Below, one piece after another: positions 3,121-7,831 of a stretch of 21,710 nucleotides of DNA. Source of the stretch: a virus; IMG/VR virus record IMGVR_UViG_3300015189_000030, positions 1 to 21,710 of that record; one strand, 5' to 3'. Both the position numbers and the translations under genes were made by a program. The notes below the pieces were generated by a model that was not told where the DNA came from, ran no database searches, and worked only from the letters and a program-made list of their open reading frames with translations. Within the stretch, counting starts at the first letter, position 1. Every line of letters begins with the position of its first letter.

Positions 3121-3501
3121 ATGAAGGATTCCCCGGCTCAAGTCGAGCCGAAGGCGGACGTGCGTCTGCCCTCGAGCCAGTCTGATTTGCTCACCCCCGA
3201 AGAGCTCGCCGAGCTCACCGGCAACACCCGCGTGGACACCGAAGCGTTCTCGTTCGGCGGTCGCCCGCGCACGTCGATTGCCTATTCGTGGCAGCACGAG
3301 GCCGCGGCGCAGCTCCACGGGTGGAAGGACCACGCGCACCACGCCAACGAGTCGTATCGCCTCACGCGCATCGACTACGAGGCCGCGCTGAAGGCCGCCG
3401 CGGAGCCCGTCAAGGACGAGCGCACCGGCGTCACTGACTACCAGCCGCATCGCGCGGCGATGTCTCAATACGCGCCCGCCGCGAAGAAGGAGCGACGCTA
3501 A
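3121..3501 (+). CDS. Small pre-sheath protein of unknown function
   Basis: 126 aa, highly polar, no signal peptide or membrane segment. Residues about 20-36 (QSDLLTPEELAELTGNTR) are helix-forming and superficially recall the 'LTPEELAELTG' start of DUF4224-type proteins, but the rest does not continue that way. Residues 50-80 are rich in His, Trp and Tyr (SIAYSWQHEAAAQLHGWKDH). The C-terminus is basic (AAKKERR). It stands immediately before the sheath gene, where Mu has its small gp38. A minor tail or assembly role is therefore possible but not shown. The stop overlaps the sheath ATG as TAATG. Confidence 0.65.
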   Translation: MKDSPAQVEPKADVRLPSSQSDLLTPEELAELTGNTRVDTEAFSFGGRPRTSIAYSWQHEAAAQLHGWKDHAHHANESYRLTRIDYEAALKAAAEPVKDERTGVTDYQPHRAAMSQYAPAAKKERR

Positions 3502-4976
3502 TGGTCTATCCCGCAGGGCAGACGATTCAGATCCGCGATGGCGGCATCGGTCTCGTCTCGTCGCAAGCCGCTCTCCCGCTCGTTGTTGGCGTGTGCTCAG
3601 GCGGCACCGCGACCACGCTCTACCAGTTCACCGATCCGAACCAGCTGAAGGACACGCTCGGGCACGGGCCTGGCGTCGAGCTCGGGTTGCCGGTCGTCAC
3701 TGAGGCAGGCGGGTGCCTGTTCCTCAAGACGGCGGCGAGCACCGCTGGCGTCGCTGGCGCTGTGACCAAGACGGCCATCGGCGTGAGCACGGGCACCGTG
3801 ACCGTCGCCGGTGCGCCGCGCGACGCGTACCGCGTGCTCATCGAGATCCGCGTCTCCGGTACCGTTGGAGCGGGGAAGTTCCGCTACGCGCTGGATCGCT
3901 ACTCGGCCGTCGCCTCGGCTACGCCCACCGCGTACACGTTCACCGAGGAGATCACCATCCCGTCGGGCGGCACGTACGCTGTGCCCAACACCAACCTGAC
4001 GCTGACCTTCGTGCCCGGCGCGGGTGCCAACTTCTTCCTGGCCGGCGACTATCACGCCTTCGACTGCACCGCGCCGCACTACACCACGAGCGATCTGGGC
4101 GCCGCCATCACTGCGCTGCTCACGCAGATCGGCGCGCGCAAGATCCGCAAGGTGTTCTTCGCCGGCAAGAACGCCACGTCGAGCGCTGGCGCCACGATGG
4201 CCGCTGCCATCGCGACGCACATGAACACGCTGAAGGCCGCTCAGTTCTACGGGCGCGCCGTCATGGACATGGGCGAGGATGTCGCGGCCACCGCGAAGAC
4301 GTCGTTCGCCTCGTTCGCTAACGACCGCGTGCAAGTCGTATGGGGAAACGCCGACGTGGCCACGCTGAACACATTCCCCGGATGGGGCTTCCCCCGCTAC
4401 CCGGCGATGCTGCCCGTGAGCGAGCGCGCAGCCGGCGCCGACCTCAGCGAGAACCTGGGCCGCAAGGCTTCGGGCACGCTGCGCGGCGTCAAGGCCATCT
4501 ACGGCGACGAGGGAGCGCAGACGGCATTCTCCGAGGCCGACAAGATCACAACGCTCCGCACCTATCGCGGCGACGCCGGGTTCTACATCACCAACGGCTA
4601 CCTCCGCTCGCCGAGCGGCTCCGACTTCCAATACTGGGACTGGGGCTGCACCATCGACGAGATCTGCGAGACCATCGTCACCGCGCAGGACAAGTGGCTG
4701 CTCAAGAAGCTGCGCTCCCTCACCGACGGGACAGGCAAGATCGACAGTCGCGACGCGGCTCGTATCGAGTCGGCGGTGCGCGCGGCGCTCAAGGCCAAGC
4801 TGCTCGATCCGGTCAACGTCGAGGGCTACAAGGCGCACGTTTCGGGCCTCTCCTACGTGGTCGACCGAACGAACGACTACCTGTCGACGCGAACGTTCAT
4901 GAGCGCGTGCGTCGCTGTGCCGCTCGTGCCGGCTGAAACCATCTCCACCCAAGTCGGGTTCGCGAGGAGCCTCTAA
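3501..4976 (+). CDS. Contractile tail sheath protein (Mu gpL / DUF2586-like)
   Basis: 491 aa, close to the length of Mu gpL. The N-terminus (IQIRDGGIGLVSSQAALPLVVGVCSGG) has the form of sheath proteins that begin with a glycine-rich 'i-d-glG' strand and a 'vGvs-gG' turn. Residues about 85-190 form a strand-rich insertion with Val/Thr/Ala repeats, probably a surface domain of the sheath. The C-terminal part has FYITNGYLRSPSGSDFQYWDWGCTIDEIC and a long helix, then the strand VDRTNDYLSTRTFMSACVAVPL. This is the subunit whose polymer contracts during injection. It is followed by the tube gene with a TAATG overlap, the usual sheath-tube order. Confidence 0.88.
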   Translation: MVYPAGQTIQIRDGGIGLVSSQAALPLVVGVCSGGTATTLYQFTDPNQLKDTLGHGPGVELGLPVVTEAGGCLFLKTAASTAGVAGAVTKTAIGVSTGTVTVAGAPRDAYRVLIEIRVSGTVGAGKFRYALDRYSAVASATPTAYTFTEEITIPSGGTYAVPNTNLTLTFVPGAGANFFLAGDYHAFDCTAPHYTTSDLGAAITALLTQIGARKIRKVFFAGKNATSSAGATMAAAIATHMNTLKAAQFYGRAVMDMGEDVAATAKTSFASFANDRVQVVWGNADVATLNTFPGWGFPRYPAMLPVSERAAGADLSENLGRKASGTLRGVKAIYGDEGAQTAFSEADKITTLRTYRGDAGFYITNGYLRSPSGSDFQYWDWGCTIDEICETIVTAQDKWLLKKLRSLTDGTGKIDSRDAARIESAVRAALKAKLLDPVNVEGYKAHVSGLSYVVDRTNDYLSTRTFMSACVAVPLVPAETISTQVGFARSL

Positions 4977-5437
4977 TGAGCACCACGGTCAACAACATCC
5001 CATTCGACCACTGCTCACTCGAGTTCGAGATCTCGTCGAGCGGAGAGAGCTTCGGCATCATGTCCGGCGTCGACTCGATCGACTACACCGAGACGTTCAA
5101 CCGGACCAAGTACGGCGGCACCAACCGACAAGCGACGGCGCGCACGGACGGCGACTCGGAGTGCGAGGGGTCGATCACGTTCTACCAGAGCTGGTGGGAT
5201 TACCTCGCATCGAAGGCCGCCGAGCTGAAGCAGCCGCTCGCGCTGATCGAGTTCACGTTGACCATCAACAAGCAGCACCGAGGCGAAGTGCTCCACACGG
5301 ACACGCTCACCGGCGTGAAGCTTGGCGACATCGGCAACTCGAGCTCGAAGGGGCCCGACGCGCTGATGGTCACGTGCAAGCTCGACGTGATGAACATCTA
5401 CCGAGACGGCGTGGACGCGTGGGGGAACACGCTCTGA
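4976..5437 (+). CDS. Tail tube protein
   Basis: 153 aa. It lies directly after the sheath and before the chaperone, the conserved place of the tube gene in contractile tails. The sequence is mostly beta: FDHCSLEFEISSSGESFGIM, SIDYTETFNR, then DGDSECEGSITFYQSWWDYL, and ALMVTCKLDVMNIYRDGVDAWG. The 'G-T-R--A-GdsecEGSItf' centre followed by an aromatic helix is typical of tube subunits. Subunits would stack as hexameric rings inside the sheath around the tape measure. The start ATG overlaps the sheath stop, with GAGGAG just upstream. Confidence 0.82.
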   Translation: MSTTVNNIPFDHCSLEFEISSSGESFGIMSGVDSIDYTETFNRTKYGGTNRQATARTDGDSECEGSITFYQSWWDYLASKAAELKQPLALIEFTLTINKQHRGEVLHTDTLTGVKLGDIGNSSSKGPDALMVTCKLDVMNIYRDGVDAWGNTL

Positions 5438-5489: not shown

Positions 5490-5816
5490 ATGAACAGCGA
5501 GACACACGAAAGTGTGCTGGCGCCGTTGCGCGCCAAGCACGGGGAGATCGCATCGTGGGACGTGCCAGGCTTCGGCCTGGTCGTCGCTGCCGTGCCGGAG
5601 AACTCGAAGGAGTACCATCGGCTCGTCAACGACCTGAAGAACCCCAAGCTCGACGCCGCTGTCGCAATGGAGAACTTTGCGCTTGCGTGCATCGTGCACC
5701 CGTCGCGTGAGCAGGCGAAAGCTATCTTCAAGGCGCGCCCGGCGTTCGCCCTGAAGGTGTGCGGCCGCGGGCAGGAGCTCTGCGGGAGCGACATCGAAGA
5801 GCTGGGAAAAGACTGA
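5490..5816 (+). CDS. Tail assembly chaperone, short (zero-frame) product
   Basis: 108 aa, ending EELGKD. This is the Mu gp41 / lambda gpG equivalent, recognised by position (between tube and tape measure), small size, helical C-terminal half (AMENFALACIVHPSREQAKAIFKARPAFALKVCG) and, above all, the slippery heptamer four codons from its end. These chaperones coat the tape measure protein during tail assembly and are absent from the finished virion. The ATG at 5490 has GGAGG 8 nt upstream inside a hairpin loop. Confidence 0.85.
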   Translation: MNSETHESVLAPLRAKHGEIASWDVPGFGLVVAAVPENSKEYHRLVNDLKNPKLDAAVAMENFALACIVHPSREQAKAIFKARPAFALKVCGRGQELCGSDIEELGKD

Positions 5817-6007
5817 AAGAAGCGCGCGGCAACCTCCTCACGGGGGCCCGCGCGCTTCTTGCGTTTCAGCGTGGCGAAGACACCGAAGAGGCCATGCTCG
5901 GTGCGCTCATGCACGCGGAGCACCAGGGCGCGGTCATCTCGTACGTGATGGCGTGGGACGAGTGGTGCAAGGCGTGGGTCCGAGTGAACACCCGGCGAAG
6001 GAGGTAG
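5490..6007 (+). CDS. Tail assembly chaperone, long product by -1 frameshift (G-T type fusion)
   Basis: This product joins 5490-5810 to 5810-6007 in the -1 frame. The ribosome reads GGA AAA at 5805-5810, slips back one base and continues AGA CTG AAA GAA. The fusion is 172 residues: 107 from the first frame (…EELGK) and 65 from the second (RLKEARGNLLTGARALLAF…AWVRVNTRRRR). The second frame has no convincing start of its own and stops 3 nt before the tape measure ATG. Its extension is helical with aromatic residues (YVMAWDEWCKAWV) and a basic end. In lambda the equivalent gpGT bridges chaperone and tube subunits at a low, fixed ratio to gpG. The same role is inferred here. Confidence 0.88.
5804..5810 (+). 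promoter_or_regulatory. -1 ribosomal frameshift slippery site GGGAAAA
   Basis: The heptamer is in exact X XXY YYZ register with the zero frame (ctG GGA AAA gac tga). Both P- and A-site tRNAs can therefore re-pair after a one-base backward slip. The zero-frame stop is the second codon after the site. A 13-bp stem starts 6 nt downstream. Position, register and spacing all match the conserved tail-chaperone frameshift of double-stranded DNA phages. Confidence 0.92.
5817..5860 (+). promoter_or_regulatory. Frameshift-stimulating stem-loop
   Basis: AAGAAGCGCGCGG (5817-5829) pairs without a mismatch to CCGCGCGCTTCTT (5848-5860). Inside the loop, CCTCC (5833-5837) can pair with GGGGG (5842-5846) including one G-U, closing a 4-nt TCAC loop. 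The first base pair is 6 nt after the slippery site, the spacing needed to pause a ribosome with the heptamer in its P and A sites. The stem also overlaps the first codons of the -1 frame, so the bases serve coding and structure together. Confidence 0.88.
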
Positions 6008-6010
6008 GTC

Positions 6011-7831
6011 ATGGCTGACGCGTCATTCACGATCAACCTCGTCAACGGGATCACCGGCAAGGCCGAACAGGCAACCAAGTCTCTCGGCGAGATCGAGGGC
6101 TCGTTGCGCAAGGTCGACAAGGCCGCGGGCGGGCTCGACTGGGGGAAGATCAAGGACGGCAAGTCGGCCGTCGCGGATCTCGCTGGCGGCATGAAGGCGC
6201 TCGGCGTGGCTGCAGGGCTGGCCGCCGCCGCTGTTGCCGCCGCTGCGGGCGTGGCGATCGTGAAGTTCGGCGGTGCCGCCATCGAAGCGGCCGGGTTCGC
6301 CCAGAAGTCAAAGCTGGCGCTGACCCAGCTCACCGGTAGCGGAGAGGTGGCCGCTCAGGAGTTCGATGCCGTCCGCAAATCTGCCGCCGACCTCGGGCTG
6401 GACGTCGACGAGTCGGTGAAGAGCTTTCAGAAGTTGCTCGCGGCGCAGTTCTCGATCGGGGAGGCCAAGGGCATCATCAAGATGGGCGCCGACCTGCGCG
6501 CCATCGGAGCCTCCGCGGAGAACGCGCAGAGCGCCATCGTCGCCATCACGCAGATCAAGTCGAAGGGCAAGCTGCAGGGTGAAGAGCTGATGCAGCTGCA
6601 GGAGGCAGGCGTCAGCGGCAAGCTCGTCAACGAAGCGCTTATGAAGTCGACAGGGCAGGACCTAGCCGGCGTGCAGAAGATGATGTCGGCGGGGAAGATC
6701 GACGCTGAGACGGGCGTCGCGGCCATCATCGAAGCCATCAAGCACAAGGTGGGCGAGAGCGAGCTCGGTGAAGCGGGTGCCAAGTTTGCCGCCACCACGA
6801 TCGCCGGCTTCTCGGGCAAGCTGCAGGGTGGCCTCCGCAACGCGATGATCGACATTGGCACGGCGGTCGAGCCAGCCATCGTGCGCATCACCACGCTCAT
6901 CAGCGGCAGCATCGAAAAGCTCACGTCGAGCGGCAAGCTGCAGGCGCTGAGCGACGCGCTCGTGATGGGCTTCGAGCGGTTCGCAGGGTTCATCGAGAGC
7001 AATTGGCCTGCCATCGAGGGCGCGGTGGTGGGCACCATCGACGCGATCATCTCGGGCGTGCAGGGCGCGGTGGTCGTGCTGCAGTACCTGCAGGACCACT
7101 GGGAGACCATCTCCCTGACGCTCAAGATCGTCGGCGGCGTGCTGCTGGCCATCGCAGCGGTCATGGCCACCATCTGGGTCGTCACCAACATCGTGGCGCT
7201 CGCCATCGTGGTCGCGGTCTTGGCCGTCGCCGCCGCCATCGCGTACGTCGCGAACAACATCGCCGCCTGGTGGGACACCATCGTCAGCGGCATCGCCAAC
7301 TTCATCGGCGTGGTCGTCGGCGCGGGCGGCGAGCTCTACGCGGCAGCCGTCGGCTGGGCGTCGAACCTCATCGATGGCCTGGTGAACGGCATCACGCAGT
7401 TTGCGCAGCGGGCGCGCGACGTCGTCGCCAACCTCGGCAGCAGCATCGCGGGAGCGTTCACCGGCATCCTTGCCATCAACTCACCGTCGAAGCTCTTCGA
7501 GGACTTCGGCATGTTCACGGTGCAGGGCTACGTGCAGGGCATCGAGGCGAACGACAACGCGGCGAGCGTGGCCACCGCGGGGCTCGGTACCGCAGCCATC
7601 GACGGCATCAGCGAGGTCAAGCTGCAGGGGGTCACCGCGGGATCGTCCACCGCTGCCGTGCAGAGCGTCGGCACGGGGGCGACAGCGGGCGGGATCGGCT
7701 CGGGCAACACGTTCAACATTCCGATCACCATCACCGGCGCGGATGCGGCCAAGGACCCGGCGGTGCTGGCCGATGACATCGCGGCCAAGGTGCGGCGCAC
7801 CATCAACTCGATGCTGGAGACCGCGGCCTGA
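6011..7831 (+). CDS. Tape measure protein
   Basis: 606 aa. The N-terminal part is Ala-rich, with a hydrophobic stretch at about 60-85. Residues about 95-290 match the phage tape-measure domain (QLTGSGEVAAQEFDAVRKSA, then FSIGEAKGIIKMGADLRAIG, and GKLQGEELMQLQEAGVSG). Residues about 366-425 hold two or three strongly hydrophobic helices, followed by a helical region. The C-terminal INSPSKLFEDFGMFTVQGYVQGIE (about 489-510) is the common 'SPSk-f-e-G---v-G---Gi' motif. The protein sets tail length and may help DNA cross the inner membrane; at about 1.5 angstrom per residue it predicts a tail near 90 nm (inference). The ATG is preceded by GAAGGAGG. The stop overlaps the next start as TGATG. Confidence 0.93.
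   Translation: MADASFTINLVNGITGKAEQATKSLGEIEGSLRKVDKAAGGLDWGKIKDGKSAVADLAGGMKALGVAAGLAAAAVAAAAGVAIVKFGGAAIEAAGFAQKSKLALTQLTGSGEVAAQEFDAVRKSAADLGLDVDESVKSFQKLLAAQFSIGEAKGIIKMGADLRAIGASAENAQSAIVAITQIKSKGKLQGEELMQLQEAGVSGKLVNEALMKSTGQDLAGVQKMMSAGKIDAETGVAAIIEAIKHKVGESELGEAGAKFAATTIAGFSGKLQGGLRNAMIDIGTAVEPAIVRITTLISGSIEKLTSSGKLQALSDALVMGFERFAGFIESNWPAIEGAVVGTIDAIISGVQGAVVVLQYLQDHWETISLTLKIVGGVLLAIAAVMATIWVVTNIVALAIVVAVLAVAAAIAYVANNIAAWWDTIVSGIANFIGVVVGAGGELYAAAVGWASNLIDGLVNGITQFAQRARDVVANLGSSIAGAFTGILAINSPSKLFEDFGMFTVQGYVQGIEANDNAASVATAGLGTAAIDGISEVKLQGVTAGSSTAAVQSVGTGATAGGIGSGNTFNIPITITGADAAKDPAVLADDIAAKVRRTINSMLETAA

Follow-up and report, generated by a model that had tools for sequence, protein, structure and literature searches.

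The question raised by this locus was whether the gene at 5490-5816 yields a single tail assembly chaperone or, by means of a programmed -1 ribosomal frameshift, a pair of products that share most of their sequence. The window, i.e., the whole 21.7-kb virus record that was analysed, carries genes for head and tail of a Mu-like contractile-tailed phage (Table 1). Within it the chaperone gene is located between the probable tail tube gene and the tape measure gene, and the latter is followed by further genes, probably also for the tail. An initial annotation, made from the sequence alone, had described a slippery heptamer in exact register close to the zero-frame stop, a 6-nt spacer, an uninterrupted 13-bp stem with a small stem inside its loop, a -1 frame open to 6007 and ending just before the tape measure gene, and products of 108 and 172 aa. 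All of these elements were recovered when the coordinates were read directly. The final codons of the zero-frame ORF are CTG GGA AAA GAC TGA, with GGGAAAA read as G_GGA_AAA, and the stem begins at 5817, 12 nt past 5805, where the P-site codon GGA starts. From 5711 the -1 frame stays open as far as a TAG at 6005-6007, the tape measure ATG is located 3 nt past this stop, and the fusion length follows from 107+65 aa. On the + strand, the whole window contains just five X3Y3Z motifs in which Y is A or T. An SD-like GGAG (5785-5788) is located 16 nt ahead of the second base of the motif, on the margin of the range (6-17) with reported stimulation; L087, the nearest relative, has no SD-like counterpart at this place.

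Table 1. Features of the window at and around the candidate frameshift site.
Feature	Coordinates	Strand	Basis
Mu-like major capsid (gpT)	within window, among head genes
Tail sheath (DUF2586)	3501..4976	+	domain match and relatives
Probable tail tube protein, upstream of chaperone gene	4976..5437	+	position; relatives' counterparts annotated XkdM or tail protein
Tail assembly chaperone, zero-frame product, 108 aa	5490..5816	+	ORF, predicted fold, profile match to 3FGX
Slippery heptamer G_GGA_AAA in register	5804..5810	+	sequence; recurs in nearest relatives
6-nt spacer, holding GAC and zero-frame stop TGA	5811..5816	+	sequence
13-bp stem, 5' arm	5817..5829	+	complementarity, folding, recoding test, pair probabilities
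Inner 5-bp stem with 4-nt loop, inside 18-nt loop	5833..5846	+	folding, pair probabilities
13-bp stem, 3' arm	5848..5860	+	complementarity, folding, recoding test, pair probabilities
-1 frame extension, 65 aa plus stop, giving 172-aa fusion	5810..6007	+	open frame; homologous extension in about 30 loci
Tape measure protein	6011..7831	+	TMP_3 match, E 1.3e-15

The product of 5490-5816 was compared with known tail proteins by structure prediction and profile searches. An AlphaFold2 model of the chaperone, based on a 23-sequence alignment, had a pLDDT of 91.7 and matched the folds of 3FGX (Z 11.4), 3KLU (YqbN, Z 6.1), and 2OB9 (HK97 gp13, Z 6.0); 3FGX and 2OB9 were also the top ranks in Foldseek. 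These three structures have been described as tail assembly chaperones (PMC9603447, citing Pell et al. 2013). The 108-aa protein thus shares its fold with XkdN/YqbN and RBSTP2171 (3FGX) but is only 12-19% identical to them, and the family profile matches 3FGX by sequence (E 7.5e-9). Against Pfam DUF6848 the window protein scored 19.8 bits, below the gathering cut-off of 27, and 10 of 14 family members matched at E <= 0.01. Fold, profile match to the solved 3FGX, and position between the tube and tape measure genes support the assignment as a tail assembly chaperone, as the initial annotation had named it. The NCBIfam model LIC_10177_fam, which bears a Leptospira-type name, matches 13 of the 23 family members and suggests that related prophages may be present in Leptospira.

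The hairpin is formed by AAGAAGCGCGCGG (5817-5829) and its exact complement CCGCGCGCTTCTT (5848-5860), with all 13 pairs Watson-Crick and the 5-bp stem contained in the 18-nt loop between the arms. Folding of a 67-nt segment with an RNA structure program, the check proposed in the initial annotation, gave -35.5 kcal/mol (z -4.4), and none of 200 dinucleotide shuffles was as good. It is the only perfect hairpin of at least 12 bp (loop 3-40) in the window, the runner-up being 11 bp. Because the region after the TGA codes in the -1 frame only, synonymous recoding provided a sharper test: the 18 extension codons past the zero-frame stop were swapped for synonyms using the phage's own codon usage. 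The 13-bp stem was obtained in 0 of 20,000 recoded versions, and 0.03% of these folded as stably (MFE P 0.0003). Pair probabilities were at least 0.99 for all but the outermost two pairs, both in the local fold and in a 180-nt context. An alternative lower helix, in which the spacer segment CTGAA (5813-5817) pairs with TTCAG (5866-5870) and takes in the stop codon, is also available, and the consensus fold of four relatives retains a similar outer helix. For bacterial signals, published rules place the start of the hairpin 4-10 nt past the motif (PMC4066793) and its point of action at a distance of 11-12 nt from the P-site codon (PMC7282821). The window hairpin fits both placement rules, and its role would be stimulatory. 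The length of the perfect stem had been singled out as unusual, and it stands apart among its homologues: near the slip site, the uninterrupted Watson-Crick stems of distinct homologous sites measure 3-8 bp. The L052 site forms a long helix of nearly equal stability, with a bulge and shifted by 3-4 nt.

When the chaperone, the 172-aa fusion, or the tube protein was used directly as query against viral contigs, no relatives were returned, and a search of phage records with the chaperone gave none either. Since sequence searches with the chaperone itself found none, relatives were reached through a profile of the sheath protein, of which a narrower version yielded the nearest ones; a chaperone profile then placed the chaperone in about 60 loci. 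In the great majority of these loci the zero frame ends just past the slip region, and the shifted frame contains a homologous extension up to the tape measure gene, with the consensus-like pattern A-R-x-L-L-A-F-x-R-G-E-D-x-x-E-A-x-x-G-A-L. Among relatives whose site is complete, the nearest four carry GGGAAAA (L087, L089, L052) or GGGAAAC (L088) at the homologous codons, and the contig of a fifth near relative (L028) ends before the slip site. The extension is conserved from the first codon past the slip (RLKEARGNLLTGARALLAF / RLKRARADHIVGGRALLAF / RLEATRGDLESSARALLAF / RLERANERIEESARCLLAF) and can be aligned directly with those of L087, L089, and L052, starting at the slip site. About 30 more distant relatives retain the layout, mostly with A-rich slip sites; A6N predominates in the more distant -1 relatives (19 of 34 scored sites), and GGGTTTT, AAATTTG, or other motifs are present in some. 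Most -1 relatives likewise have a heptamer in exact register. The initial annotation had held that homologues without both the heptamer register and the open -1 frame would speak against its reading; the relatives keep slip motif and extension. Three of the near relatives (L028:6559-7161, L052:6505-7164, L089:6521-7165) have a chaperone twice as long, of over 200 aa, which by eye resembles a tandem duplication of the chaperone domain, and in L052 and L089 it is the second copy that ends in the putative frameshift site.

Structure next to the slip site was compared across the relatives using recoded versions as the reference. All four nearest relatives were more stable than the mean of their recoded versions (z -2.9 for L087, -2.7 for L089, -4.3 for L052, and -1.5 for L088). 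The mean z of 34 -1 sites was -1.50 vs -0.78 in 102 control windows from the same genes (P 0.005), and the window, at -4.4, was the extreme of the set. No excess structure was found in relatives of the +1 type (mean z +0.40, n=15). Modest z values in the relatives are weak evidence because coding sequence in these phages is already somewhat more structured than its recoded versions (control means -0.69 and -0.78). GGGAAAN sites had a mean z of -2.5 vs -1.3 at A6N sites (P 0.03, with shared ancestry ignored, and with 5 of the 7 GGGAAAN sites in one clade), a difference that is only suggestive. Covariation in the 13-bp stem was assessed on the four sequences alignable from the slip site, where three pairs had two-sided changes, a number reached by 162 of 500 shuffles; L087 cannot covary at the stem core because it shares GCGCGCG unchanged. 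Individual pairs are not conserved by column, and the relatives re-form hairpins in other registers. What appears to be kept, then, is the position and stability of the hairpin rather than any particular pairs.

In phages of Thermus/Meiothermus and their relatives (L018, L019, L021, L035, L036, L039, L041, L044-L047, L049-L051, and L053), the homologous chaperone extension is in the +1 frame, and -1 heptamers are absent. At all 15 distinct +1 sites the overlap contains an in-frame TTT followed by C, never TTC, even though each of these 15 loci uses TTC more often than TTT for Phe. The TTT.C is located 4-6 codons before the stop at 14 sites and 16 codons before it in Riverbug. This pattern suggests that the frames may be joined by a +1 slip of Phe-tRNA from UUU to UUC.

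The anatomy of the site, the improbable hairpin, and the conserved heptamer and extension all agree with the initial annotation in that the locus very probably carries a programmed -1 ribosomal frameshift, which would set the ratio of 108-aa to 172-aa chaperone in a Mu-like contractile-tailed phage. Slippage, its efficiency, stimulation by the hairpin, and the functions of the short and long forms are inferred, as follows. GGA-AAA would be decoded in the P and A sites while the 13-bp hairpin sits at the mRNA entrance, and ribosomes would pause there. A fraction would re-pair on GGG-AAA and continue in the -1 frame through the extension, and the remainder would terminate at TGA 5814. If the two products work as lambda gpG/gpGT do, the tape measure protein would be coated by the short form, and tube subunits would be recruited by the extension. 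Frameshifting in tail genes, by -1, -2, or +1, is how the chaperone ratio is set across a wide range of tailed phages (PMC5009743). Earlier work in E. coli found G_GGA_AAA to be inefficient, and a full survey placed V_VV.A_AA.R among the efficient bacterial motifs (PMC4066793). A strong stimulator beside G_GGA_AAA makes sense because the earlier work found the motif poor; a very stable stem could also act as a roadblock, which would be a point against the frameshift reading.

Other explanations for the split frame and for the hairpin were weighed against the same data. In the annotations of Mx4, Riverbug, and MMP7 the second ORF appears as a small gene in its own right, and in the window an independent start (GTG 5759 or ATG 5894, both in frame) or re-initiation after TGA 5814 could in principle express the extension with no frameshift. 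However, conservation of the extension begins at the slip site, upstream of ATG 5894 and before any plausible start codon, GTG 5759 falls within the chaperone gene, no start codon is present at the stop, and the recurrence of heptamers in register in most -1 relatives likewise argues against a separate gene, which is considered very unlikely. A reading of the hairpin as a transcription terminator or attenuator between the chaperone and tape measure genes, with the heptamer incidental, would draw on the GC-rich perfect stem, its T-rich 3' arm (CTTCTT), and the A-rich segment upstream, but a T tract is absent after the stem, where GCGTTTCAG follows, and termination at this point would deprive the tape measure and baseplate genes of transcription. 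A terminator scan placed no + strand site here, with a loop limit of 3-8 that would miss the 18-nt loop. The hairpin is located inside a conserved coding segment and the relatives keep structure beside the slip site, which makes a terminator highly unlikely.

Two further alternatives concern the frame change itself. Runs of 7-8 A, at which slippage of RNA polymerase rather than of the ribosome is possible, are present in several relatives (Mx4, L043, L038). In the window and the relatives nearest to it the run is no longer than GGG followed by AAAA, on which polymerase would not slip efficiently, and the layout is nevertheless the same; polymerase slippage as the source of the frame change is extremely unlikely. 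The window is also an IMG/VR-type virus record, and single-base errors occur, such that an indel from sequencing could have broken an intact gene in two in this metagenome contig. An assembly error of this kind is effectively refuted by the relatives, since dozens of independent contigs as well as sequenced phages (Mx4, Mushuvirus, MMP7) share the split, most with the slip motif at the same place.

With ribosomal -1 frameshifting as the preferred reading, a broader and distinctly tentative proposal can be made for the chaperone family, namely that the strengths of slip motif and hairpin may trade off. A-rich sites would need little structure, the G_GGA_AAN phages, including the one in the window, would retain a strong hairpin whose pairing register changes with drift of the coding sequence, and the Thermus/Meiothermus sister lineage would have switched to +1 at UUU.C. 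If this is true, the family is a natural series for measuring how different signals keep a fixed chaperone ratio. The homologous signals (GGGAAAN, A6N, GGGTTTT, AAATTTG, and +1 UUU.C) can be used to test how differing slip sites and structures reach a workable ratio.

The window signal is regarded as a very clean new instance of the known lambda G/GT-type programmed -1 frameshifting. To the DUF2586-sheath Mu-like lineage, in whose best-known members two separate genes are annotated, it contributes a bacterial -1 signal that is clean and predictable. As in lambda gpG/gpGT, the gene is located between those for tube and tape measure and combines a short chaperone with a presumed low-frequency -1 extension, and the window motif GGGAAAA is near-identical to that of lambda, GGGAAAG (G_GGA_AAG). 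Unlike lambda, the window phage has a contractile Mu-like tail and a long perfect stem past the slip site, and no sequence similarity to lambda proteins was found. The E. coli dnaX -1 signal also combines a slip site with a simple hairpin 11-12 nt from the P-site codon (PMC7282821), but its motif is A_AAA_AAG rather than G_GGA_AAA, its stem is about 10 bp rather than 13 bp, the only SD-like element near the slip site here is the GGAG 16 nt upstream, and the frameshift outcome here would be a longer protein, not a shorter one. The Myxococcus phage Mx4 (Mx4_p57/p58) shares the homologous chaperone with its -1 extension, the same gene order, and a stable hairpin (z -3.2); it differs from the window in that its slip site is an A8 run. 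In Mx4, p57 and p58 (L017:6865-7412) are annotated as two hypothetical genes and not as frameshifted, and they look like one frameshifted chaperone gene with the A8 run as its slip site.
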